From assembly GCA_018242685.1 (NCBI GenBank), contig JAFEBM010000023.1, forward strand, positions 22,681 through 86,680: a DNA stretch of 64,000 bases, read 5' to 3'. The stretch comes from Nitrospira sp. GTDB lineage: Bacteria > Nitrospirota > Nitrospiria > Nitrospirales > Nitrospiraceae. Position numbers and translations under genes: made by a program. This document shows positions 1 through 61,857 of the stretch, in pieces. The notes under the pieces were generated by a model. The model saw only the letters and a list, made by a program, of their open reading frames with translations, had not been told where the DNA came from and ran no database searches. Numbering within the stretch: the first letter of the stretch is position 1; each line of letters starts with the position of its first letter.

Positions 1-582
1 CAGCAGGGGCACGAGGCGCGCTTTGAGCGCGGCAAACACCGGCTGGAGGCCGGCTATGGTTGCGCCCGGTTCATAGACATCCAACAGGGCGTTGTAGGGC
101 GAATCCTGATATCCGAGATGCTCGGCTTCTTCCCGCTTGAGCTGCAACACCGTCCGGAGGTTCGGCAGAAACATCGCGAATGTATTTTGTTCTTTCGCCT
201 CGGCCCACACCTGCTGAGCCAGCGAACATTCGCGGCTCAACTTCACGACGAAATCCGAGGGCAGTTTCTTCGCGCGGCTGAAGTCCCGCCACACTTCGCG
301 CAAGAGCGAGCGTGACGGTTCATCCCAGGCATCTCCCGCTTGGTCAATCGCCTGACCGGTCGCCGGATCGACCCATTGTGACAAGAGCGCCTGCACGTCC
401 GACGAGGCCAATTTCTGATGAGCCAGGCCCTGAAGCACGGCGATCTGCTCGGCCCTCGCTTCCCCCCCGCCGACCGGCATGTAGGTTTCCTGATCCCACG
501 ACAAGACCGAGGCGGCACTATTGATGCGTTGAATTTCCAGCAACCTGGTCGTAAGAGGTTCCAACGTCGCGAGCGTCTTCAA
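1..582 (-). CDS. Carboxypeptidase Taq (M32 metallopeptidase), N-terminal part, cut by window edge
   Basis: Reading the minus strand from a TTG at 582 gives 194 codons without a stop, running off the left edge. The product contains INSAASVLSWDQETYMP near residue 20, then AEQIAVLQGLAHQK, LLREVWRDFSRAKKLPSDFV and GYQDSPYNALLDVYEPG. These blocks are typical of the N-terminal helical half of M32 zinc carboxypeptidases (thermostable carboxypeptidase Taq family, normally about 500 residues). The HExxH zinc site would lie outside the window. The TTG start is chosen because AAGGAG lies about 6 nt upstream and there is no earlier in-frame ATG before the product stops looking like the family. The gene diverges from the O-methyltransferase at 685. 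Confidence 0.85.
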   Translation of the reverse strand, partial: MKTLATLEPLTTRLLEIQRINSAASVLSWDQETYMPVGGGEARAEQIAVLQGLAHQKLASSDVQALLSQWVDPATGQAIDQAGDAWDEPSRSLLREVWRDFSRAKKLPSDFVVKLSRECSLAQQVWAEAKEQNTFAMFLPNLRTVLQLKREEAEHLGYQDSPYNALLDVYEPGATIAGLQPVFAALKARLVPLL

Positions 583-684
583 TCAGGTCTCCTTTCCACT
601 ATGTTAAGATCCGCTCATGATTCTGCAGCCGAGCGCAGTGTACGCAACCACATCGGTCTTTTCAAATTGCTGAAGGGAATACAG

Positions 685-1344
685 ATGAAACAGCTGATTC
701 CGTCCGAGATCGAAGCATACGCCGAAACCCATTCCATACCGGAATCGTCGGTCTGTCGCGCGCTGCGCGAGGAGACCTATCGGACCATGGAGTACTCCCA
801 GATGCTGGTCGGTCCCTTGGAAGGGGCGTTCCTGAAAATGATGACGCAGTTGGTGGGTGCGAAGCGGGTGCTCGAAATCGGGATGTTTACCGGCTACAGT
901 GCCCTCTGCTTCGCGGAAGCCTTGCCCGAAGATGGAACCGTCGTTACCTGCGAGATTGATGAGAAAGCGGCAGCGGTGGCCAGGCGCTATATCGCACAAG
1001 CGCCATTTGGGGGCAAGGTCAGTATCCGCATGGGAGCCGCACTCAATGCGATGCGCGTGCTCTCCGGTCCATTCGATCTCATCTTCATCGATGCAGATAA
1101 AACCAATTACCTCAATTATTACCGCCGTTCGCTCGATCTGCTCGCTCCCAATGGGGTGATCTTAATCGACAACGTGCTGTGGAGCGGTGAAGTCTTAAAA
1201 CAACCGCCGTTTGATGAATCCACCGCCGCCATTCAGGAGCTGAACCGGACCGTCTCAACCGATCCTCGCGTCACTGCTGTACTGGTTACGATCCGTGATG
1301 GGATTTTGGTGGTGAGAAGAGCGGAGAGTTCCAAATCGCGGTGA
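685..1344 (+). CDS. Class I SAM-dependent O-methyltransferase (caffeoyl-CoA OMT-like family)
   Basis: A 219-residue enzyme expected to methylate a catechol-type hydroxyl with S-adenosylmethionine and a divalent metal. The SAM loop VLEIGMFTGYSAL, the acidic metal/catechol motif LIFIDADKTNYLNYY and the later ILIDNVLWSG are all hallmarks of the metal-dependent caffeoyl-CoA/catechol OMT family, and the length is normal. The reading frame is open from 418, but the ATG at 685 is preferred because AAGGGA sits 6-7 nt before it and the upstream segment has no family resemblance. The substrate cannot be inferred. It ends 18 nt before the convergent PIN toxin gene. Confidence 0.9.
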   Translation: MKQLIPSEIEAYAETHSIPESSVCRALREETYRTMEYSQMLVGPLEGAFLKMMTQLVGAKRVLEIGMFTGYSALCFAEALPEDGTVVTCEIDEKAAAVARRYIAQAPFGGKVSIRMGAALNAMRVLSGPFDLIFIDADKTNYLNYYRRSLDLLAPNGVILIDNVLWSGEVLKQPPFDESTAAIQELNRTVSTDPRVTAVLVTIRDGILVVRRAESSKSR

Positions 1345-1362: not shown

Positions 1363-1791
1363 TCAACCCCTGGGCAAGATGTTGAAACCTTCTCGACGTC
1401 CGGCTTCCCGCAATCGTTGGTCCAGGCACACAAACTCTCTGTGGGCTGGATTGCCTTGACACCATACTATGGCCGCCGCTAACTGCAGGGAATCGGCGGC
1501 TCGTAAGGGATGCAGTCGCAAGACACGAGCGGCCTGATCTCGGACAGCTTCACTCGGTTCCACTTCCGTCCAAGCAGTCACCAGTGCTCGCAGGACAGCT
1601 TGTGTCTGCCTATCTTCCTCAACATCAAGAACCTCCTCTCGTCTCAGTCTTGCGAAAGCCGAAAGACACTCAATCGGCGAAGCCCACCATGTGACGATGG
1701 ATTGGTCTGCTTGGAGCAGTTTTCTTAGAGCGGGGCTTTCGCGTTCCTGAAGGCACAGAGGGATCAGCGCGGAGGCGTCCCAAAACTTCAT
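1363..1791 (-). CDS. PIN-domain ribonuclease toxin (VapC-like)
   Basis: A 142-residue PIN domain. The acidic residues expected to bind Mg are present: Asp5 in KFWDASAL, Glu41 in SPIECLSAF, Asp100 in RAADSLQL and Asp124 in VCLDQRL. VapC toxins cleave RNA and are held inactive by the product of an upstream antitoxin gene. The start overlaps the antitoxin stop by 4 nt (ATGA), the usual translationally coupled arrangement. The target RNA is unknown. Confidence 0.88.
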   Translation of the reverse strand: MKFWDASALIPLCLQERESPALRKLLQADQSIVTWWASPIECLSAFARLRREEVLDVEEDRQTQAVLRALVTAWTEVEPSEAVRDQAARVLRLHPLRAADSLQLAAAIVWCQGNPAHREFVCLDQRLREAGRREGFNILPRG

Positions 1792-2078
1792 CGCCCTTCA
1801 GACCGATCTGCCAGAAGTGCTTTGAGTCCTCGCCCCTCTCGGTCCTTGGGCCGTGGCAATTTCCAAAAGCCAGCCGGCAATTTGCCGGTTCCTAAGCGAA
1901 CCAGCCCGGCGCGGGCGAGATCGTGCAGGGTGTCACTCTCATGACCATCTTTCGACAAGGGCACGAGCTTCGCGATGGGCTTCCCTCGCTCGACCACCAG
2001 TACCTCATCACCGGCTTTGACTTTAGCGAGACAGGCACTCAGCGTAGCTTTCAGTGTGGAAACTGCTGCGCGTTTCAT
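1788..2078 (-). CDS. Phd/YefM-type antitoxin paired with the PIN toxin
   Basis: A 96-residue protein beginning MKRAAVSTLKATLSACLAKVKAGDEVLVVERGKP, the classic Phd/YefM N-terminal DNA-binding fold in which an AxxxxL-LS--L pattern precedes GDEVLV-ERGKPIAKLVP. The C-terminal tail (KLPAGFWKLPRPKDREGRGLKALLADR) is the probable toxin-neutralising segment. The ATG at 2078 is preferred over one 33 nt upstream because GAGGAG lies about 7 nt before it and homology begins there. It should autoregulate its own promoter with the toxin. Confidence 0.85.
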   Translation of the reverse strand: MKRAAVSTLKATLSACLAKVKAGDEVLVVERGKPIAKLVPLSKDGHESDTLHDLARAGLVRLGTGKLPAGFWKLPRPKDREGRGLKALLADRSEGR

Positions 2079-2415
2079 GAATGACTCCTCAGGACTAGTG
2101 CATATGACCAATATAGTCCATTGAGTCGATTCCGTGCAAGGAAAGGGACTGTTGGGCTAACCATGTAGGCCGCAGTGTCCAGGCTATTCTCAAGAAGAGC
2201 GAGTAGAGAACACGATGACAGACCTAATCTTAGCTCAGCATCTACAGGAACACCAAAGGCCTGATTGAATGCCTCATGCCTTCAGAAACAAACAAGCCCT
2301 AGTTCCGTAATCCATCTTACTTATGGTATCTGTACCGATACGTGCCGTATCTCGTTTGCCACCTCGTTGTGGCAGTGGCCTTTCTCTCGCCGTGAACGAC
2401 TCGATGGAGGAGCCT
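2079..2415. other. Intergenic region between the TA module and the DUF4231 gene
   Basis: About 340 bases between divergently transcribed units. The TA promoter must lie near its left end and the promoter of the SLATT/caspase/CHAT unit near its right end. I could not identify a convincing gene, hairpin or repeat. Confidence 0.5.
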
Positions 2416-2967
2416 GTGAATAATCTAAATAAGCCGACTGACCATGAGCACATGCGGGCCGAGATGGACAAGCTCATCGCATCCCTGGATTTGCCGGAAC
2501 TGAACAAGGAGTTTATGCGGGCGCGGTGGTTGGAGCTGGTCATTTGGATGGATGGGAAGGCGCAGGAGTCCGTGTGGTGGTATCGTAGGCTACGTCTGGC
2601 GACGATCGTCGGCGGCGTGATCGTGCCGGCGCTGGTCAGCTTGAATGTCGGCGATGATGTCGCACCTCTGGTCAAAACGCTCACGTTCATCGTCAGCCTT
2701 GCGGTGGCGTTGAGCGCTGCTGTGGAGGAGTTCTTTCGCCATGGTGATCGATGGCGCCACTACCGGCGCATGACCGAGTCGCTCAAGAGCGAAGGCTGGC
2801 AATTTCTACAGCTGAGCGGAAGCTATGCCAACCAAACCCATATTCAGGCATACCCGGTCTTTGCGGCGCGGGTTGAAGAGCTGAGCCGAGAAGAGGTCGA
2901 GTCCTACATCACGCAGGTGTTCAAGGAAAAAAAAGAGGCAGATGACAAGACACCCTCTGTGTCGTGA
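2416..2967 (+). CDS. DUF4231 / SLATT-like two-TM membrane protein
   Basis: A 183-residue protein with two predicted membrane helices, about residues 61-78 (LATIVGGVIVPALVSL) and 84-103 (PLVKTLTFIVSLAVALSAAV). A soluble helix follows carrying the DUF4231 signature YRRMTESLKSEGWQFLQLSGSY. DUF4231 is part of the SLATT group of two-TM proteins that occur in prokaryotic conflict operons and are predicted to act as membrane-perturbing effectors. The GTG start at 2416 is chosen because GGAGG lies 5 nt upstream; the ATG at 2404 has no ribosome site. The next gene starts 35 nt downstream. It could be the membrane executioner controlled by the two proteases that follow, but that role is inference. Confidence 0.8.
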   Translation: MNNLNKPTDHEHMRAEMDKLIASLDLPELNKEFMRARWLELVIWMDGKAQESVWWYRRLRLATIVGGVIVPALVSLNVGDDVAPLVKTLTFIVSLAVALSAAVEEFFRHGDRWRHYRRMTESLKSEGWQFLQLSGSYANQTHIQAYPVFAARVEELSREEVESYITQVFKEKKEADDKTPSVS

Positions 2968-3002
2968 GGTTAGTACCTATTCAATCACAGAAAGGAGAGG
3001 GT

Positions 3003-3839
3003 ATGGCCAAACGAGCAGTGCTCATAGGGATCAACAAGTATCAGGTGCCCGGATCGGATCTGAATGGGTGCGTGAATGACGTAAAGAATCTGAGCGGAGC
3101 GCTGAAAACCTACTACGGGTTTGCGGACAAGGACATCACGACCCTCACGGATACTCAGGCCACGAAGAAAGCGATGGAACGAGCCATCAAAAAACTGGTG
3201 GCGAGCGGGAAGAAAGGCGATGTGCTGCTGCTCCATTATTCGGGGCATGGGTCAAACGTGCCAGATGACAATGGCGACGAAGCCGATCATCGCGACGAGA
3301 TCTTGTGTCCGACTGATTTGGACTGGAAGGATCCATTTCGAGACGACTGGCTCCGGAAGACCTTCAACAAACTGCGATCAGGGGTGAGTCTCACGGTGAT
3401 TATGGACTGCTGTCACTCAGGAACAAACACCCGCGCCATCATTCCGCCGGATGCCCCCATACGAGAACGGTTCCTCCCTTGCCCGTTGGATCTGATGGCT
3501 GTCGAGTCCGGCAGGAAGCTGCGAGGAACGCTTCGCGGTCAGCTGGGAAAAGCTCCCCGAGGACGGAAGAGAAAGAGCGATATCGTCCAGGCCGACATTC
3601 AAGAGCTGCTGATCACCGGCTGTCGGGATACTCAAACATCCGCCGATGCCGATATCGGAGGGACCTATAACGGGGCCTTGACCTATTACCTCGTCGAGTC
3701 GATCAAAGAAGCGGAGGGCAAACTGACCTATCGAGAGCTGCATCAGCGGACCGTCGCGAAACTGAAACAGGAGGATTTCGATCAGGTGCCCCAGCTGGAA
3801 GGGCAGCGCACGTCGTTCGATCGCTCTTTTCTGAGTTAG
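3003..3839 (+). CDS. Caspase-like cysteine protease (C14 family metacaspase)
   Basis: A 278-residue protease made only of a caspase-hemoglobinase fold domain. The start is typical (KRAVLIGINKYQ...LNGCVNDVKNL). The catalytic His is His82 in HYSGHGS, and the catalytic Cys is Cys137 in the motif DCCHSG at residues 135-140. Metacaspases cleave after Arg or Lys. A basic segment (about residues 175-200, GKAPRGRKRKSD) could be an activation loop. There is no signal peptide, so it is probably cytoplasmic. The ATG at 3003 has GGAGAGG 5 nt upstream. It lies between the two-TM gene and the lipase-CHAT gene on the same strand, which suggests one functional unit. Confidence 0.93.
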   Translation: MAKRAVLIGINKYQVPGSDLNGCVNDVKNLSGALKTYYGFADKDITTLTDTQATKKAMERAIKKLVASGKKGDVLLLHYSGHGSNVPDDNGDEADHRDEILCPTDLDWKDPFRDDWLRKTFNKLRSGVSLTVIMDCCHSGTNTRAIIPPDAPIRERFLPCPLDLMAVESGRKLRGTLRGQLGKAPRGRKRKSDIVQADIQELLITGCRDTQTSADADIGGTYNGALTYYLVESIKEAEGKLTYRELHQRTVAKLKQEDFDQVPQLEGQRTSFDRSFLS

Positions 3840-3978
3840 AAGGATGAGAAGTAACGGCAGCCACCAGGCCGCCGCGGTCTTCAAGCGGGTACGTGAAGAA
3901 GAGTTACAGTTGATCGCGGGAAAGCTTATATGTGTATGTGCGTAGATTGCTCGACAGGGTTCTCTGAAGGAGTCGCCG

Positions 3979-6900
3979 ATGAGTAGAAAACAGAGAGGGA
4001 CCAAACCTCGCGATACGGATCGTGTGATCCGTGCCATGGGCTGGGACGAGTTCGAGGCTCAGCTATCCCATTCTACACGCAGGGGAAAATCACGAGCCGC
4101 CTCCGACCAGACCTTGAGAGACCACTTTGGACCTGAGAAGCTTGAGAGGCTCCAACGTTTGGCGCAGCGGGTTCGCTCAGCCCGTCAAAAGCGTGAGCCG
4201 TTGCGGGGCAATATTATCTTTATCCCCGGCATCATGGGTTCCGAATTGACGGTGACTGAGGATGGCGATGACGACGTGGTGTGGATCAGTTTCCTCAAAC
4301 TGATCTGGGGAGGCATCAACAAACTTCGGCTTGCCAAAGATGGAGCGCAGGAAGCAGATTCAACACTACGAGTACAACCAAGCGGACTCGACAAGGATAG
4401 CTACGCCGAAGCGATTCTGTGGTTGAAGGCCTACTGGAATGTCGAACCGTTCGCCTACGACTGGCGGAAAGATCTGGATCGGGCGGCGGAAGGCTTGAAA
4501 GACCTTGTGCAAACCAAGTTCAAGGATCAGCCGGTTCACCTGGTCGCCCATTCGATGGGAGGCCTCGTGTCTCGTAATTTTATTCGGCTGTATCCGAAAG
4601 TGTGGAAGGCCATGTCTGAGCCGAAGAAGGCGCAGGGTGGGCGGCTCATCATGCTCGGCACACCAAACTACGGTTCCTATGCCATTGCGCAGGCGATGGT
4701 GGCCAAGGACAAACTCGTGAAGTGGTTGGCGGCGGCAGACCTGCGACATGACTTGGATGAGGTGCTCGATGTCCTGAATGGATTCGTGGGGAGTTACCAA
4801 CTGCTTCCTTCTCCCGCGAAGCTCCCAGCCTCGGAACAAGGTCTCTATAACGCCGGCACCTGGGGCCGTTATCCCATCGTCGCCTCGCATCTCGCTCGTG
4901 CGCGGAAGTTCCACACAGATCTCGATGTACCGGCTACGACCGATCCGGAGCGGATGACCTATATCGCCGGTTGTAATCAGGAAACCTTGACCAGTGTGAG
5001 GATCGATGGTCCCGGCATGTTTGAATTCGACGTAACCTTGAAAGGCGATGGACGGGTGACGCATGCGCTCGGGTTATTGCCCAATGTGCCGACGTACTAT
5101 GTCGACGAGATCCATGGTGATCTCCAGAAGAATGAGCAGGTTCTAGAAGCCATCGACGAGATCTTGCGAATCGGCAAGACGGTGGCGCTGGCGACGGAAC
5201 CGGTGGCTGCCCGTGCAGTGCGGTCGGTGGTATCGGCGCGTGTCCTCGCCGTTCAAGAGCGCGAGGATGCCGAACAGATCCGCCGGATCGCGGAAGGGAC
5301 GGAAGCCGACCGAAGCACTCCCGCCGAGCGCCGTCTGGCCGAAGACTTACTCAGACAAGCCATCATGACGCAGGCCCCCCCTGCATCCAGAGCGGTGACC
5401 GATTCGGCGCAGGCGGATGGTGAGCGGGTGAAACGAAGGCCGGCACAAACTCCCATCTCGCTGAATCTTGAAGTGGTCCATGGTGACATTCGCGATATCA
5501 AGACGTCGGCAGTGGTTGTGGGACACTACAGAGGTGTGCCACCGATACGAGCTGTTGGGGTGCTGGACCAGGCGCTGGAGTTCTGGATTTCGAAAGCGGT
5601 CAAGCACGGCATGGTTGGAGGTGGGCTTGGCGAAGTGTTTCTCATTCCCAATGTGCAAAAGTCCATTGCCGCAAGCGCAGTGATCCTTGCAGGCATGGGC
5701 GACTACGGGCGCTTCAATCGAGAAGATCTGGATCTCCTGTTTGCCAATGTCACCTACGGAGTCACCGCGCTCGGGTGGCGTGAATTCGCCACGGTCGTTG
5801 TCGGCTCTGGAGAGGGGAATCTCTCATTGGAGCAAGCGATCGAGGGCATGCTGATGGGAGTGGAATCAGCACTCAGACGGCTCGGAGGGCAAGGACGTCT
5901 CGATATCCTGCGCGTTGTGGAGTATGACAAGGACCGCTTCAAGGCTATTCTGAAGATCGTGGAGAAAATCAAGAACAGCGATGGGCCGCTGACATTACGG
6001 CTCACGACGAAGGAACTCCCGAAGCGAACCCATCGCAAGCAACTACCAAAGCCGGAGCACCTGGACCAGATGAAGGGGAGCCGCATTACAATTGAACGGG
6101 ATCGTGATGCCTTCCGGTTCTCCGCCATCAGAGAGCAGGCGGTGATTCCAGTTCGAGAGATCACGATTCAATCCTCCTATGCGGAGGGAGCCTCCGAACT
6201 GTTGAAGGAATCGCGAAATGTGGAGGATCAGCAGAAATACGGGAAGCTGTTACACAGCTATCTCATGCCGAAGGACTTTCAAGACATGGTCGATGTCACA
6301 CCGCTCACGCTCATGGTCGACCGTTCGACAGCGGCATTCCCATGGGAAATGGCGGCGTTCGAGCAGCATGGAAAAGTCATTTTCTACGGACCGGGGAGGC
6401 AATTGACGCGACAATTCCGAACCACCTTGTCTGGTTCGCCGGGGCTTATTGCGTCGATGACTGCCGATCGCCTGCGAGTGCTGATCATCGCCGATCCGGC
6501 TCCGGAGGCTGAACTCCAATTGCCGGGAGCCCGAGCGGAGGGGCGTGCGGTTGTATACATCATGCAGAACATGAGGGAAGAGCAGGGACTGAATATCACG
6601 ATCGAGCAACGTATCGGAGCGAATGAATGCGATCCGGTCGAACTGCTTGCGCTGATCCTGAGCGAAGAGTTCGACTTGATTCACTACTCCGGGCATGGTG
6701 ACTTTGATGAGAACAGTCCCGCCAAGGGTGGCTGGATTTTCGGCAAGCAGAACATCCTCTCGGCCCGAGACATCTTCCGTGCGCGACGGGTGCCTCGCCT
6801 CATCTTCGCCAACGCCTGCTTCTCCGGCGTCGTTCGATCGGGGAAGCCTTTTACTTTGCAAGAATCGAATCGGAACCTCGCCGGGCTGGCTCAGGCGTTT

Positions 6901-7143
6901 TTCGAACGAGGCGTTCGAAACTACATCGGAACCGGGTGGCCAGTGGATGATGCCGCGGCCTTGGAGTTCGCGAAAGTCTTTTATGCAGAAGCGCTGTCGG
7001 GCAATGAGCTTGGAAGCTCCTTATCGAAGGCGAGAGAGGCGATCCTCACCAGCGGGTCCACGTGGGGGGCCTATCAGCACTATGGTCAAGCCACGGCGAA
7101 ACTGATCAAGCAGCCTGAGAAGAATTCCACAGACAATCTATAA
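3979..7143 (+). CDS. LCAT-like lipase / macro-like / CHAT protease fusion
   Basis: A 1054-residue protein with three recognisable parts. Residues about 75-390 are an alpha/beta hydrolase of the lecithin:cholesterol acyltransferase type: GNIIFIPGIMGSEL, nucleophile Ser192 in AHSMGG, Asp357 in GDGRVTH and His379 in DEIHGDL form a plausible triad. Residues about 493-650 (LEVVHGDIRDIKTSAVVVGHYRG, GLGEVFLIPN) resemble the macro-like N-terminal domain of M17 leucyl aminopeptidases. Residues about 700-1045 are a CHAT caspase-like protease: FPWEMAAFE, His906 in HYSGHGD and Cys947 in NACFSG. The start has AAGGAG at good spacing. There is no signal peptide. One chain thus has a candidate phospholipid hydrolase, a possible ligand-sensing domain and a protease. 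Domain calls for the ends are firm, that for the middle is moderate, and the function is inferred. Confidence 0.85.
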   Translation: MSRKQRGTKPRDTDRVIRAMGWDEFEAQLSHSTRRGKSRAASDQTLRDHFGPEKLERLQRLAQRVRSARQKREPLRGNIIFIPGIMGSELTVTEDGDDDVVWISFLKLIWGGINKLRLAKDGAQEADSTLRVQPSGLDKDSYAEAILWLKAYWNVEPFAYDWRKDLDRAAEGLKDLVQTKFKDQPVHLVAHSMGGLVSRNFIRLYPKVWKAMSEPKKAQGGRLIMLGTPNYGSYAIAQAMVAKDKLVKWLAAADLRHDLDEVLDVLNGFVGSYQLLPSPAKLPASEQGLYNAGTWGRYPIVASHLARARKFHTDLDVPATTDPERMTYIAGCNQETLTSVRIDGPGMFEFDVTLKGDGRVTHALGLLPNVPTYYVDEIHGDLQKNEQVLEAIDEILRIGKTVALATEPVAARAVRSVVSARVLAVQEREDAEQIRRIAEGTEADRSTPAERRLAEDLLRQAIMTQAPPASRAVTDSAQADGERVKRRPAQTPISLNLEVVHGDIRDIKTSAVVVGHYRGVPPIRAVGVLDQALEFWISKAVKHGMVGGGLGEVFLIPNVQKSIAASAVILAGMGDYGRFNREDLDLLFANVTYGVTALGWREFATVVVGSGEGNLSLEQAIEGMLMGVESALRRLGGQGRLDILRVVEYDKDRFKAILKIVEKIKNSDGPLTLRLTTKELPKRTHRKQLPKPEHLDQMKGSRITIERDRDAFRFSAIREQAVIPVREITIQSSYAEGASELLKESRNVEDQQKYGKLLHSYLMPKDFQDMVDVTPLTLMVDRSTAAFPWEMAAFEQHGKVIFYGPGRQLTRQFRTTLSGSPGLIASMTADRLRVLIIADPAPEAELQLPGARAEGRAVVYIMQNMREEQGLNITIEQRIGANECDPVELLALILSEEFDLIHYSGHGDFDENSPAKGGWIFGKQNILSARDIFRARRVPRLIFANACFSGVVRSGKPFTLQESNRNLAGLAQAFFERGVRNYIGTGWPVDDAAALEFAKVFYAEALSGNELGSSLSKAREAILTSGSTWGAYQHYGQATAKLIKQPEKNSTDNL

Positions 7144-7185: not shown

Positions 7186-7728
7186 TCACTTTGCTGGGTC
7201 GTACGCGACGTCCAAGACTTTGACGTCGAAGTAGAGTGTCTTGCCGGCCAGCGGATGGTTGAAATCCAGGACGACCGTATCGTTTTTCACCTCGGAAATA
7301 CGGGGAAAGACCTTTCGGCCCTCAGCGGTTTTGCCTTCCAACTGGGTCCCGACTTTTTGAGCATCCGCCGGTACCATCTTTTTGTCGATCTCCTGAAATG
7401 CTTTCGGATCGATGGTGCCGTAGCCTTCGGTTGGGGCTACCGAGAACTTCTTTTTCTCGCCGACCGCCATCCCCTCGATCTGTTTCTCGACCCCAGGAAT
7501 GATTTGGTGACTGCCCTGAGTGACTTTCAAAGGTTCCTTACCGACATTGGTATCGACGACGGATTGATCGTCCAGTTTCAGGGTGTACTCCAGGCTCACT
7601 TGTTTTCCGTTCGAGACTGTCATTGGTGAGGCTCCTTTCTTCTGGTCTCCGGCACATGCAGCCACGGTCGAGAACAACAGCACTGCGCTCCAAGCGGACA
7701 GCACAAAGAATAGGTGTGGACGTCTCAT
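7186..7728 (-). CDS. Exported FKBP-type peptidyl-prolyl isomerase, probable lipoprotein (copy 1)
   Basis: A 180-residue SlyD-like FKBP. A signal peptide (RRPHLFFVLSAWSAVLLFSTVAACAGD) ends in VAAC, which fits a lipobox, so the mature protein is probably lipid-anchored. The domain opens with GKQVSLEYTLKLDDQSVVDTNVGKEPLKVTQGSHQIIPGVEKQIEGMAVGEKKKF, the canonical FKBP/SlyD start, and ends with DFNHPLAGKTLYFDVKVLDV. It should assist folding of envelope proteins. AGGAGG lies upstream of the ATG. It is a tandem paralog of the gene at 7965. Confidence 0.9.
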   Translation of the reverse strand: MRRPHLFFVLSAWSAVLLFSTVAACAGDQKKGASPMTVSNGKQVSLEYTLKLDDQSVVDTNVGKEPLKVTQGSHQIIPGVEKQIEGMAVGEKKKFSVAPTEGYGTIDPKAFQEIDKKMVPADAQKVGTQLEGKTAEGRKVFPRISEVKNDTVVLDFNHPLAGKTLYFDVKVLDVAYDPAK

Positions 7729-7964: not shown

Positions 7965-8507
7965 TCACCTCGGCGAGGCTTGCGCGACATCCAGGACTTT
8001 GACGTCGAAGTAGAGTGTCTTGCCGGCCAACGGATGGTTGAAGTCGAGCACGACGGTCTGGTTCTTCACCTCGGAAATCCGCGGAAAGACCTTTCGGCCA
8101 TCTGCGGTTTTTCCCTCCAGCTGCATGCCGACCTTTCGGGAATCGGACGGCACCATATCCTTGTCCACTTCTTGAAACGCTTTTGGATCGACGGCGCCAT
8201 ATCCATCGGCTGGGGCGATCGTGAACTGTTTTTGTTCCCCGACCGCCATCCCTGAGAGTCCCTTCTCGACCCCAGGAAGGACTTCGTGACTGCCCTGGGT
8301 GACTTTCAACGGCTCCCCGCCGACGTTGGTATCGACGACTGATTGATCGTCCAGTTTCATGGTGTATTCCAAGGTCACTTGTTTCCCATTCGAAACGGTC
8401 ATCGGTGAGGCTCCTTTCTTCAGATCGCCGGCTGATGCAACAACCGCCGAGAGCAAGAGAATTGCGCACCAACCACAGAGTGCTTGAAATATGTACGAGC
8501 GTCTCAT
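7965..8507 (-). CDS. Exported FKBP-type peptidyl-prolyl isomerase, periplasmic (copy 2)
   Basis: A 180-residue paralog of the preceding FKBP with nearly the same domain (VTLEYTMKLDDQSVVDTNVGGEPLKVTQGSHEVLPGVEKGLSGMAVGEQKQF...DFNHPLAGKTLYFDVKVLDV). Its signal peptide ends VVASAGD without the cysteine of copy 1, so it is expected to be cleaved by signal peptidase I and be soluble in the periplasm. AGGAGG precedes the ATG. The upstream 180 bp resemble those of copy 1, so regulation is probably shared. Confidence 0.9.
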   Translation of the reverse strand: MRRSYIFQALCGWCAILLLSAVVASAGDLKKGASPMTVSNGKQVTLEYTMKLDDQSVVDTNVGGEPLKVTQGSHEVLPGVEKGLSGMAVGEQKQFTIAPADGYGAVDPKAFQEVDKDMVPSDSRKVGMQLEGKTADGRKVFPRISEVKNQTVVLDFNHPLAGKTLYFDVKVLDVAQASPR

Positions 8508-34564: not shown

Positions 34565-35107
34565 GGGGCTCTCCTTGTTGTCCGAGACATAGCACCCTCT
34601 CAGAACTCGCGATCACATTGGAGAGTGTGCCTATTTTGGTCGAGGATCGAGTGAGTCTCCCTCCCGTTACCACTTCAAGATCGCCCAACTGCGTTGCGAC
34701 CGTTCTGCGATGTCCTTAAGCCACGGCAATGATCGTTCCAAGGAACATGCTTCAAGGTCGCGTATCTCTAAGTGCGGAACAAATATGTGAGTCGGGATGA
34801 ATTAGAGGGAAGCAGTCGGAAGGAGCGAGCCGCTTGTGACGAAAGACATCTGTCGATATCTCGGCGTTTGCCGAAAGGTCAGCATCAGCGAGGGCGAGCA
34901 ATCCCGAGCTTTTGAATTTTGGATTGCGACGTGGTGCGTTCCAAGGGGGGGCAGACCCCGTGGTTCCATGGCGTTTGGTTTCACGCTGATGCTCACTGCG
35001 TTGCGGTCCGGTACAGGCCGACGGCATTAGTGTAACCATCGGCTACTTTTTGTTTGACATTAAATTTTGTCCTGGGCATACTGCGCAAACTTCTCAATTC
35101 CTGTTTT
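34565..35107. other. Gene-poor stretch with a remnant of a regulator 3' end
   Basis: About 540 bases between the MBL gene and the methyltransferase gene. The only recognisable content is at 34885-34941 (minus strand), where [22 protein letters not shown] can be read. This is nearly the C-terminus of the sigma-54 regulator at 37699 ([18 protein letters not shown]). The rest shows no supported gene. Confidence 0.6.
34847..34926. repeat. Left copy of the 80-bp direct repeat flanking the R-M module
   Basis: Matches 37661-37740 at 76 of 80 positions in the same orientation. It begins CATCTGTCGATATCTCGGCG and contains the hairpin TCGGCGTTTGCCGA. It corresponds to the last codons of the sigma-54 regulator gene plus its 3' flank. 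Confidence 0.9.
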
Positions 35108-36703
35108 ATGAAACTCTTTTCTGGCGTAGGCAGTTGCGAACCGATGGTTCTTCCGACCACTCAAGATTCTCTCTTCCGTCTTGCCGATCGCTTGCTCCAG
35201 TGCTGTCACAGCCGTCCACAAGATGCACTTCTCAATACAATCAGAAGGCGGCTATTGGCAGGGCATGACGTGCTCGGGGACAGCTATAGCCGAATAGTGT
35301 CGGCCGAACAGCGGCGTGCTCTGGGGGCGACGTTCACGCCGCCTCAAGTGGTACGGGCGATGGTGGCATGGGCCAAGACGCAAGGGGTAACATTTGAGCG
35401 TATTATCGACCCCGGCGCCGGCTCCGGCCGCTTCGTCCTCGCTGCAGCGCAAGCCTTTCCGGATGCTCACATCATTGCTGTTGAAAAAGATCCACATATC
35501 GCGAGGCTTCTGCGCGCCAATATCGCCTTCGCCGGGTTCGTTAAGCGCGTTTCGATCATTGTAGACGATTACCGCTCGGTCCATCTGTCTTCCGCCGGCC
35601 GGACATTGTTTATCGGTAATCCGCCCTACGTTCGCCACCATGATATCGAACCACGTTGGAAGCGTTGGTATACCGAGACTTTTCGAGCATATGGATTGCC
35701 CGGCAGCGCTTTGGCAGGGCTCCATCTCCATTTTCTTCTCAAGACTCGTCAACTCGCGAGTCCCGGCGACTATGGATGCTTCATTACGGCAGCGGAATGG
35801 CTCGACGTGAACTATGGCTCCACAGCCCGCGCGATGTTGATGAACGGTATGGGCGGGCGATCACTACACCTTATCGATACGGCATCGCAGGTTTTCCCTG
35901 ATGCCATGACGAGCGCTGCTATCGTCTGTTTTGAAATCGGTTCCCGTCGTCGCTCATTGACGATACGCCGCGTTCAATCTTCCGCTCAGCTAGGGAATTT
36001 GCAGGGTGGCATGAAGGTCACTTTCTCGCGCGCTGAGAGCCAGGACAAATGGTCGCATTTGATTCGACCAAACGGTTGGGAGGAGAAGAGCTTTATTAAG
36101 GTTGGAGAGTTGTTCAAGGTGCACCGCGGACAGGTGACTGGTATGAACAAGGTGTGGATCGCTGCTGAACAGGCGGAGGGGCTGCCCACCTGCGTCTTGG
36201 TTCCTGCCGTTACGCGTGCAAAAGAACTCATCCAAGCCTCCAACGCTCGTCTCACGGAAGCTCGCCAACTTCGGCGCATCGTGGATCTTCCCAATGACTT
36301 CAGCAGGTTTTCGACGCAGGACCGTAAACGTATTGAAACCTTTATGGCATGGGCGCAGTCGCAAGGAGCGAAAGACAGTTATATTGCGGCGCATCGGAGA
36401 CCGTGGTGGCGGGTCAACCTGAGAGCACCTGCGCCCATCCTCATGACATACATGGCTCGACGCGCTCCGGTGTTTGTTCGGAACGCTTGCGGGGCCAGAA
36501 TTCTGAATATTGCCCATGGCCTATATCCCCGTATCCCGCTTTCTGAAGCCGATCTGACGCTGATCATCCGTTGGCTGAACGCAAATGTCCGGCTTGGTGG
36601 TGGTCGGACCTATGCCGGCGGGTTGACCAAGTTCGAGCCAGGAGAAGTGATGAGGCTCCCTATCCCTCGTCTGGAACAGTTGCGTATGATGGGAATCGCT
36701 TGA
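35108..36703 (+). CDS. N6-adenine DNA methyltransferase (type II R-M, XamI-type partner)
   Basis: About 531 residues. SAM motif I DPGAGSGRFVLAAA is at residues about 101-114, and catalytic motif IV GNPPYV at about 170-175, the NPPY signature of N6-adenine methylation. The stretch LGATFTPPQVVRAMVAWA is the usual lead-in for this class, and the C-terminal half (VGELFKVHRGQVTGMNKVW) resembles target-recognition segments. The start is uncertain: TTG at 35054, ATG at 35108 or ATG at 35144 are all possible and none has a strong ribosome site. The stop is immediately followed by the nuclease start. It should protect host DNA from the nuclease. Confidence 0.88.
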   Translation: MKLFSGVGSCEPMVLPTTQDSLFRLADRLLQCCHSRPQDALLNTIRRRLLAGHDVLGDSYSRIVSAEQRRALGATFTPPQVVRAMVAWAKTQGVTFERIIDPGAGSGRFVLAAAQAFPDAHIIAVEKDPHIARLLRANIAFAGFVKRVSIIVDDYRSVHLSSAGRTLFIGNPPYVRHHDIEPRWKRWYTETFRAYGLPGSALAGLHLHFLLKTRQLASPGDYGCFITAAEWLDVNYGSTARAMLMNGMGGRSLHLIDTASQVFPDAMTSAAIVCFEIGSRRRSLTIRRVQSSAQLGNLQGGMKVTFSRAESQDKWSHLIRPNGWEEKSFIKVGELFKVHRGQVTGMNKVWIAAEQAEGLPTCVLVPAVTRAKELIQASNARLTEARQLRRIVDLPNDFSRFSTQDRKRIETFMAWAQSQGAKDSYIAAHRRPWWRVNLRAPAPILMTYMARRAPVFVRNACGARILNIAHGLYPRIPLSEADLTLIIRWLNANVRLGGGRTYAGGLTKFEPGEVMRLPIPRLEQLRMMGIA

Positions 36704-60726: not shown

Positions 60727-61857
60727 TTGATTGACCATGAAGAACTCTTCGCGATTGCTGAAAAGCTGAAGAAAACCGCAAGCGGCGCGGACACTGATGA
60801 CATAGCTAGGCCGCTAAGCGCCTTAGAGGATGCAGCCCTAACGGTTGGGCGCTCATTTTCCGGCTCTTGGCAAGGCTATCACTCCCGCGTGTATTACAAG
60901 GGCTTCTCGCCGCCACCGCCGGGGGCGCACTTCAGTCAAGAGTGGGGGCTGATGGATACCTCCGGAACTAGTCTCGGATCGCGTGGGGATTGGCAAGAGT
61001 ACGACACCGAACAAGTAAGGACGCACATTCGAAAGCTAGCTGGGACGCCCGATCTCGACAAGGCGCATAAGGCCGCCGATGCCGCATCCAAGACCTTTGA
61101 TCTCGCAAAGGCGGAGATCATCTCCGTCCTTCAAAGTGATGTCGAAGAGCGAGGAGATGCGTTTCTTGAGAACCTGAAGAAAAAAGTCGAGGAGCTAGAG
61201 GTGTTATCGCCTTTCGATGTCGTACAACATCTATCCTCTAAGGGACAGATCATGACTCGCGATACAGTCGTGTTGGGACAAGGAACGCAAGTCCCTCCAC
61301 ACATTAACCTCATTGCTGAGGTTCAGAGTATCCGTCACACCTTCTCGATCTGCGATGCTGCCAGCGCAATTGCGACAAAGGCGGCATCACACCTAGAACG
61401 CAAATCACGCAAACGGAAAGACGAAGAGAGAGTGGGAACAAACGTTTTCATTGGCCATGGCCGGTCGCGCCTCTGGTGCGAGCTTAAGGACTTCGTGCAG
61501 GATCGCCTGAAATTACCGTGGGACGAATTCAATCGTGTACCGGTCGCGGGCATCGCGAACATAGCGAGATTATCAGAAATGCTTGATGTGGCCGCGATCG
61601 CCTTTCTCGTGATGACAGCTGAAGACGAAATGGCTGACGGTGCGAGCCAGGCAAGAATGAATGTCGTTCACGAGGCAGGACTGTTTCAAGGCCGCCTCGG
61701 ATTCACTAGGGCAATCGTCATGTTGGAAGAAGGCTGCGAAGAGTTCAGCAACATAGAAGGCTTAGGACAGATCCGATTTCCTCACGGGAACATCTCCGCT
61801 GCCTTTGAGGAAGTTCGCCGCGTAATGGAGCGCGAGGGGTTGATTGAGGCAAATTAA
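60727..61857 (+). CDS. TIR-like (CAP12/Pycsar-effector type) protein, putative NADase
   Basis: A 376-residue protein. The C-terminal domain (about residues 237-376) begins GTNVFIGHGRSRLWCELKDFVQDRL and contains ARMNVVHEAGLFQGRLGFTRAIVML, the pattern of the TIR-like family PF10137, with Glu317 as the likely catalytic residue. Such domains degrade NAD+ in antiphage systems. The N-terminal half (about residues 1-200) is unassigned and may sense the trigger; residues 110-160 are helical. The start is TTG at 60727 with AGGAG about 9 nt upstream. No cyclase gene is adjacent. It lies within the second cassette. Confidence 0.85.
   Translation: MIDHEELFAIAEKLKKTASGADTDDIARPLSALEDAALTVGRSFSGSWQGYHSRVYYKGFSPPPPGAHFSQEWGLMDTSGTSLGSRGDWQEYDTEQVRTHIRKLAGTPDLDKAHKAADAASKTFDLAKAEIISVLQSDVEERGDAFLENLKKKVEELEVLSPFDVVQHLSSKGQIMTRDTVVLGQGTQVPPHINLIAEVQSIRHTFSICDAASAIATKAASHLERKSRKRKDEERVGTNVFIGHGRSRLWCELKDFVQDRLKLPWDEFNRVPVAGIANIARLSEMLDVAAIAFLVMTAEDEMADGASQARMNVVHEAGLFQGRLGFTRAIVMLEEGCEEFSNIEGLGQIRFPHGNISAAFEEVRRVMEREGLIEAN

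Follow-up and report, generated by a model that had tools for sequence, protein, structure and literature searches.

A metacaspase paired with a lipase-CHAT protein in a modular, predicted conflict locus of Nitrospira

Introduction

Three consecutive genes in a 64,000-nucleotide stretch of Nitrospira sp. DNA (GenBank assembly GCA_018242685.1, contig JAFEBM010000023.1, positions 22,681 to 86,680 of the forward strand; hereafter the window) raise the question of whether a phospholipase-type domain and two proteases of the caspase clan could act together in the death of a bacterial cell. The genes encode a SLATT protein with two predicted transmembrane (TM) segments (gene 1), a metacaspase (gene 2) and a giant protein (gene 3) in which a lipase is fused to a macro-like M17N domain and a CHAT protease (hereafter lipase-CHAT). 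To our knowledge, few bacterial metacaspases have a known trigger or substrate. The window is part of contig 15 of a 4.2 Mb genome bin that is 94% complete. An earlier, sequence-only reading of this DNA had proposed the three genes as a single conflict system; here we ask which of them belong together and what they might do.

Results

The metacaspase and lipase-CHAT genes are the recurrent unit

The unit that is found broadly consists of the metacaspase and the lipase-CHAT protein. Scanning 84,980 species genomes yielded 78 loci, 60 of them with a match above 100 bits, and 47 could be judged, having either at least 1.2 kb of upstream sequence or a caspase already in evidence. The sequence-only reading had allowed that orthologues of these genes might never occur together; a metacaspase in fact lies within 4 kb of the lipase-CHAT gene in 18 of the 47 judged loci, always upstream and on the same strand. 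Adjacency was found in 12 of the 18 closest loci (at least 700 bits), 4 of the 20 in the middle band and 2 of the 9 weakest, with a caspase profile derived from hits near the query, which distant caspases may escape. Ten of the 18 pairs fall outside the Nitrospira group (one each in Bryobacterales, Pyrinomonadaceae, Blastocatellia, Azotobacter and Competibacteraceae, and five in Hymenobacter), and we take these ten to represent three further phyla, four in all with Nitrospira. That the adjacency recurs in phyla without the genomic slot described below argues for a direct functional tie between the two proteins.

In the Hymenobacter loci the caspase lies within a protein of 932-988 residues, and the one that was scanned has an Amidase_2 domain; at three of these loci (L028, L033 and L036) the amidase-caspase fusion, which bears its own GHSAG-type motif, adjoins a lipase-CHAT gene with a Ser-to-Gly change in the lipase. 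The giant lipase-CHAT proteins beside the metacaspases of Azotobacter and Competibacteraceae end in a TPR-S domain. Other partners include Peptidase_C11 (upstream in L045), SIR2_2 (in L012, L039 and a Rhizobium plasmid) and an nSTAND1-WD40 protein (L039). Among 130 neighbours at 20 distant loci, SIR2_2 occurred in 4 and nSTAND1 in 2, and C14 was not among the 25 of 207 families listed in this tally, which leaves room for a single C14.

Domains and catalytic residues of the two core proteins

Gene 2 matches Peptidase_C14 above cut-off (123.7 bits), and metacaspases are the closest solved relatives of its product in both sequence and fold. The dyad His and Cys are invariant in a 13-row alignment and kept in all 32 alignment rows that reach those positions (one contig counted twice). 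These results agree with the caspase-like protease with an intact His/Cys dyad that had been described earlier, Cys137 being the predicted catalytic residue.

The product of gene 3 has three domains above cut-off, CHAT (94.4 bits), Peptidase_M17_N (31.2 bits) and LCAT (30.6 bits), each of which was recovered on the fold model. Ser192, Asp357, His379, His906 and Cys947 are invariant across 61 homologues. In an alignment of 42 full-length proteins, the window included (20 named loci that were fragmentary, weak or duplicated, and proteins of 900 residues or fewer, were left out), His906, Cys947, Asp357 and His379 are kept in 42/42 and Ser192 in 39/42. The lipase Ser motif aligns with that of PLA2G15, while the Asp and His are matched by position only. 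The earlier description of a giant protein joining a CHAT protease (Cys947) to a candidate phospholipase stands, with both activities predicted. The domain between them had been called macro-like, and macro domains (macroH2A1.1 and Af1521) are indeed among its Foldseek matches; by family it is a leucyl aminopeptidase N-terminal domain.

Known metacaspases cleave after Arg or Lys. In the lipase-CHAT protein, linker 464-492 is rich in these residues (K/R 24% vs 13%), and a dibasic pair is present in 46 of 61 rows, as against 32% of random windows, the rows being related and not independent.

A slot of interchangeable parts in Nitrospira

The setting of the locus was compared with 40 further Nitrospira-type DNA stretches, 8 of them repeating contigs from the other collection. 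In Nitrospira the slot is fixed between an O-methyltransferase gene and an FKBP gene, the latter on the opposite strand, and its order is kept: O-methyltransferase, SLATT, SLOG/TPR-S protein, metacaspase, a variable part, and FKBP. The variable part holds one or more of lipase-CHAT, CHAT-TPR-S, a lipase-CHAT-TPR-S protein of 1878 amino acids, patatin, TPR-S-patatin and DUF4062. No compared stretch holds every member, and TIR, nSTAND, patatin and DUF4062 genes are among those swapped in. For example, L006 contains SLATT, SLOG/TPR-S, metacaspase and lipase-CHAT, as does L015 with one extra gene; L128 contains SLATT, two TIR genes, SLOG/TPR-S, metacaspase, the 1878-residue protein, TPR-S, patatin and DUF4062; L135 has only SLATT and the metacaspase, and L010, L011 and L021 only the metacaspase and lipase-CHAT. 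In the window, the slot comprises SLATT, metacaspase and lipase-CHAT, and a PIN/Phd pair has been inserted ahead of SLATT. Coordinates are given in Table 1.

Table 1. Features of the locus in window coordinates
Feature	Position	Strand	Basis
O-methyltransferase, left slot border (homology from near 601)	418..1344	+	comparison with relatives
SLATT (DUF4231) two-TM protein, 183 amino acids	2416..2967	+	DUF4231 and SLATT_1 model matches, hydropathy, same-slot orthologues in other Nitrospira
Metacaspase (Peptidase C14), 278 amino acids, dyad His82/Cys137 counting the start Met	3003..3839	+	family match, fold, alignment
K/R-rich, low-confidence p20/p10 linker of metacaspase, residues 172-199, candidate activating cleavage site	3519..3602	+	model confidence, composition
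Lipase-M17N (macro-like)-CHAT protein, 1054 amino acids	3979..7143	+	domain matches, fold model
Lysosomal PLA2/LCAT-like lipase domain, residues 75-398, triad Ser192/Asp357/His379 by position	4201..5172	+	family, fold model, alignment
K/R-rich linker, lipase to M17N domain, residues 464-492, candidate cleavage site	5368..5454	+	low model confidence, composition
Leucyl aminopeptidase N-terminal (macro-like) domain, residues 491-668	5449..5982	+	family, fold model
CHAT protease domain, residues 752-1036, dyad His906/Cys947	6232..7086	+	family, fold model, alignment
FKBP-type peptidyl-prolyl isomerase, right slot border	7186..7728	-	comparison with relatives

The three consecutive plus-strand genes of the earlier reading were found open over the spans listed. 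Within the genus, the metacaspase is present at 85% identity or more in 19 of 35 genomes; the downstream side is readable for 18 of these, and a CHAT protein lies there in 12, in one case by inference over a contig break. Nine of the 35 genomes have a lipase-CHAT orthologue with at least 74% identity; the metacaspase is on the same contig in six and across a contig break in one, and two are cut by contig ends.

Patatin genes occupy the slot in L125, L128 and L148. The L125 patatin matches the PADLOC 'Effector, Phospholipase' models (8.5e-47), which we take to be effectors of cyclic oligonucleotide-based antiphage signalling systems (CBASS). That LCAT-type and patatin-type phospholipases alternate in one slot suggests membrane lipid as a common target. 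As to putative sensors, the relatives point rather to the SLOG/TPR-S proteins than to the macro-like domain, which had been proposed earlier as a possible sensor of a nucleotide or ADP-ribose signal; here 'SLOG-like' is a sequence-based label for the C-terminal part of TPR-S proteins, whose stand-alone form has no Pfam match.

SLATT is a Nitrospira accessory

Gene 1 matches DUF4231 (102.3 bits) and SLATT_1 (98.2 bits), both above cut-off, and its hydrophobic stretches at residues ~61-79 and ~85-103 give two TM segments predicted from hydropathy only, in keeping with the DUF4231 two-TM protein first proposed. SLATT proteins are predicted to be nucleotide-responsive membrane effectors in the parts of two sources available to us (PMC9503650, PMC7159879). 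A nucleotide-signal partner (SLOG, SMODS or TIR) was not found beside the window SLATT; such partner genes occur in the Nitrospira relatives.

DUF4231 is present in 13 of 59 genomes searched, all 13 belonging to the genus of the window, which contributes 35 of the 59. Eleven of these genes adjoin the O-methyltransferase gene, the remaining two lying on contigs that end before it, and nine are followed in the slot by a metacaspase, which in one case is a fragment at the end of a contig. Three Nitrospira slots (L134, L135 and L140) have SLATT without a lipase-CHAT gene, and only one of the ten non-Nitrospira genomes with a metacaspase and lipase-CHAT pair has DUF4231, there on a different contig. 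SLATT is an accessory of Nitrospira tied to the slot and no fixed third member, and the three-gene system of the sequence-only reading is to be revised on this point.

Other genes of the slot and window

The PIN/Phd toxin-antitoxin pair (1363-2111, minus strand) has weak Pfam matches below cut-off, and such a pair also precedes SLATT in L127, where (G011 contig 2, 343001-363000) TPR-S, TIR, DUF4062-like and other genes fill a long stretch between SLATT and the metacaspase. Tandem FKBP genes stand at 7186-7728 and 7965-8507 (minus strand), and two copies are also present in L005 and L134. In L138 (G006 contig 32), DUF4231 lies inside a protein of 655 amino acids that adjoins a TIR-nSTAND1 protein and a patatin-like gene. 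Elsewhere in the window are a second candidate defence gene, encoding a CAP12/Pycsar-type TIR protein of 376 amino acids (60727-61857, plus strand; PF10137, 66.7 bits), and an Eco57I/N6 DNA methylase-like protein (35054-36703, plus strand).

Discussion

A proposed order of events

The window contains an active-looking, modular and predicted conflict locus, whose parts are likewise predicted to function jointly. The earlier proposal, a conflict-type module combining a pair of caspase-clan proteases with a phospholipase-type domain, gains from the recurrent pairing and from the swapping of TIR, TPR-S, SLOG-like, nSTAND and patatin genes in the slot, and the locus is probably a conflict or death module. 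Chances are close to even that the metacaspase and lipase-CHAT genes, with SLATT ahead of them, form, more specifically, a protease-triggered death module in which CHAT would activate the metacaspase and the metacaspase would free the phospholipase-like domain onto the membrane, a scheme drawn from sequence features and analogy.

Such a module could work in a few steps. First, an infection or nucleotide signal would be sensed, in relatives by SLOG/TPR-S proteins or by TPR-S fused to CHAT, and in the window by the lipase-CHAT protein itself, possibly via its M17N macro-like domain. Second, CHAT would cut the metacaspase at the K/R-rich p20/p10 linker. Third, the metacaspase, an expected Arg/Lys cutter, would cut the K/R-rich linker joining the lipase to the macro-CHAT part, a step suggested by the low model confidence and basic composition of residues 464-492 together with the Arg/Lys preference of metacaspases. 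Finally, the freed phospholipase-like domain would attack the cell's own membrane, and SLATT could be a second, nucleotide-gated membrane effector plugged into the same metacaspase hub. It is doubtful that this order of cleavages is right, and slightly more doubtful that the whole amounts to a pyroptosis-like pathway with an enzyme in place of a pore, in which a lysosomal-PLA2-type lipase restrained by the macro-like/CHAT part would be freed by a CHAT-activated metacaspase, with positive feedback between the two proteases, encoded by two genes, and TPR-S wiring in some lineages. That CHAT would switch on the metacaspase we infer from the SAVED-CHAT cascade, as described in the part of the source available to us (PMC11229360).

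Several observations weigh against a death module of this kind. There is no metacaspase within 4 kb in 29 of the 47 judged loci, including the Nitrospira orthologues L012 and L013, for which 10 kb of upstream sequence is available; some distant lipase-CHAT genes adjoin ordinary metabolic genes, and those within Nitrospira (L143-L147) adjoin unrelated genes, among them an outer-membrane-type gene at L143 and L144. Outside Nitrospira, SLATT does not travel with the metacaspase and lipase-CHAT pair. The first 9 kb of the window hold no trace of a SLOG/TPR-S gene or remnant, and the TPR-S domain has no match anywhere in the genome bin, so that the window copy would either sense by another route or have lost its trigger. 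The lipase Ser is replaced by Gly in 3 of the 42 aligned proteins, all from Hymenobacter (L028, L033 and L036), and the basic linkers may reflect the general composition of linkers. Signs of decay are present in the metacaspase of relative G001, which carries an in-frame stop, and in the lipase-CHAT gene of G028, which is broken into three pieces. The ratio of nonsynonymous to synonymous substitution rates (dN/dS) is 0.05-0.22 over nine pairwise comparisons, three for each of the three genes, which indicates purifying selection on each, but in five of the nine dS approaches or exceeds 1, which weakens these estimates.

Alternative explanations

The slot might instead be organized around the metacaspase alone, which would execute by broad proteolysis, with SLATT, lipase-CHAT, patatin and the others as independent alternative effectors or inputs. 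The slots with SLATT and the metacaspase but no CHAT protein (L134, L135 and L140), those with the metacaspase and lipase-CHAT but no SLATT (L009, L010, L011 and L021) and the patatin genes in the same place all fit this arrangement. The adjacency of metacaspase and lipase-CHAT in phyla without the slot does not, and we regard this arrangement as unlikely.

An origin in metabolism or envelope physiology was also weighed. The lipase is joined to CHAT and has a metacaspase as its partner in four phyla, and a metabolic lipase was for that reason rejected as the principal interpretation. The sequence-only reading had raised the prospect that the lipase-CHAT protein sits mainly in metabolic operons, and this describes part of the distant set, where many genes are without a nearby caspase and some stand beside metabolic genes; such caspase-less relatives keep the metabolic-lipase question alive. 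A non-immune stress or envelope-turnover system, remodelling the membrane or envelope in starvation or development without a role in conflict, would accommodate the fusion of the Hymenobacter metacaspase to an Amidase_2 cell-wall amidase and the distant lipase-CHAT genes often found beside ordinary genes or the outer-membrane-type gene. Its patchy presence within one genus and its TIR, nSTAND, SIR2, TPR-S and SLOG-like neighbours make that explanation quite improbable. Least probable is that selfish or decaying accessory genes came together by chance at an insertion hotspot and do nothing jointly in this genome; the PIN/Phd pair in the slot and the sensor remnants in L134 and L149 speak for this, whereas kept order and strand, purifying selection and adjacency in four phyla speak against it.

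Two mobile origins were considered and rejected. Among the viral contigs scanned there was a single relative, weak and confined to the lipase. Thirty plasmid records match, 8 of them over more than 80% of the query, all at below 60% identity; of three plasmid regions examined, that of Rhizobium lies beside a SIR2 gene, that of Azotobacter beside restriction-modification genes and that of Paracoccus beside rhamnose transport genes, and the local profile found a caspase in none of the three.

If the protease-triggered death module is real, it would add a second kind of executioner to bacterial proteolytic immunity, a metacaspase-released phospholipase, beside gasdermin pores and CRISPR CHAT proteases. 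It would also offer a candidate role for bacterial metacaspases, in an environmentally important nitrite oxidiser, and a bacterial parallel to pyroptosis that rests on a lipid-cutting enzyme. Because sensors and effectors have been exchanged naturally many times in the Nitrospira slot while one metacaspase is conserved, the wiring is testable part by part.

Comparison with known systems

One comparison is with the type III CRISPR SAVED-CHAT system, in whose cascade a prokaryotic caspase gets cut. As there, the CHAT domain of the window folds as in SAVED-CHAT, and a CHAT protein and a caspase-type protease share one locus; gene 3 differs in having the M17N macro-like domain and the lipase instead of SAVED, for which its product gave no Pfam or PADLOC match. 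No CRISPR or cyclase gene was noticed in the slot, although no search was aimed at either. Compared with Craspase/TPR-CHAT (Csx29), the window protein has no TPR, and its partner is a metacaspase rather than a CRISPR effector. The PADLOC BovA model of the Borvo system matches the window CHAT domain (2.8e-07), but the match is confined to residues 870-1026 and is not full-length, and the gene set and other domains differ. With bacterial gasdermin systems only the scheme of protease-triggered membrane attack is shared, and the membrane part here would be the phospholipase and/or SLATT. CBASS patatin/phospholipase effectors have a counterpart in the phospholipases of the same slot in relatives, whereas the window lipase has the LCAT/lysosomal PLA2 fold and not that of patatin.

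TPR-S conflict systems were reportedly predicted by Burroughs, Aravind and colleagues. In the Nitrospira relatives, SLATT, SLOG-like and TPR-S genes stand side by side, as in the TPR-S and SLOG-SLATT predictions, whereas neither the lipase-M17N-CHAT protein nor a pairing of it with a metacaspase was met in the available parts of two sources on these systems (PMC9503650, PMC7159879). No description of either was found in the open-licence literature searched, though one may be published elsewhere. The lipase-M17N-CHAT and metacaspase core is newly seen here, and it belongs to a kind of conflict system that had already been predicted and is not categorically new.

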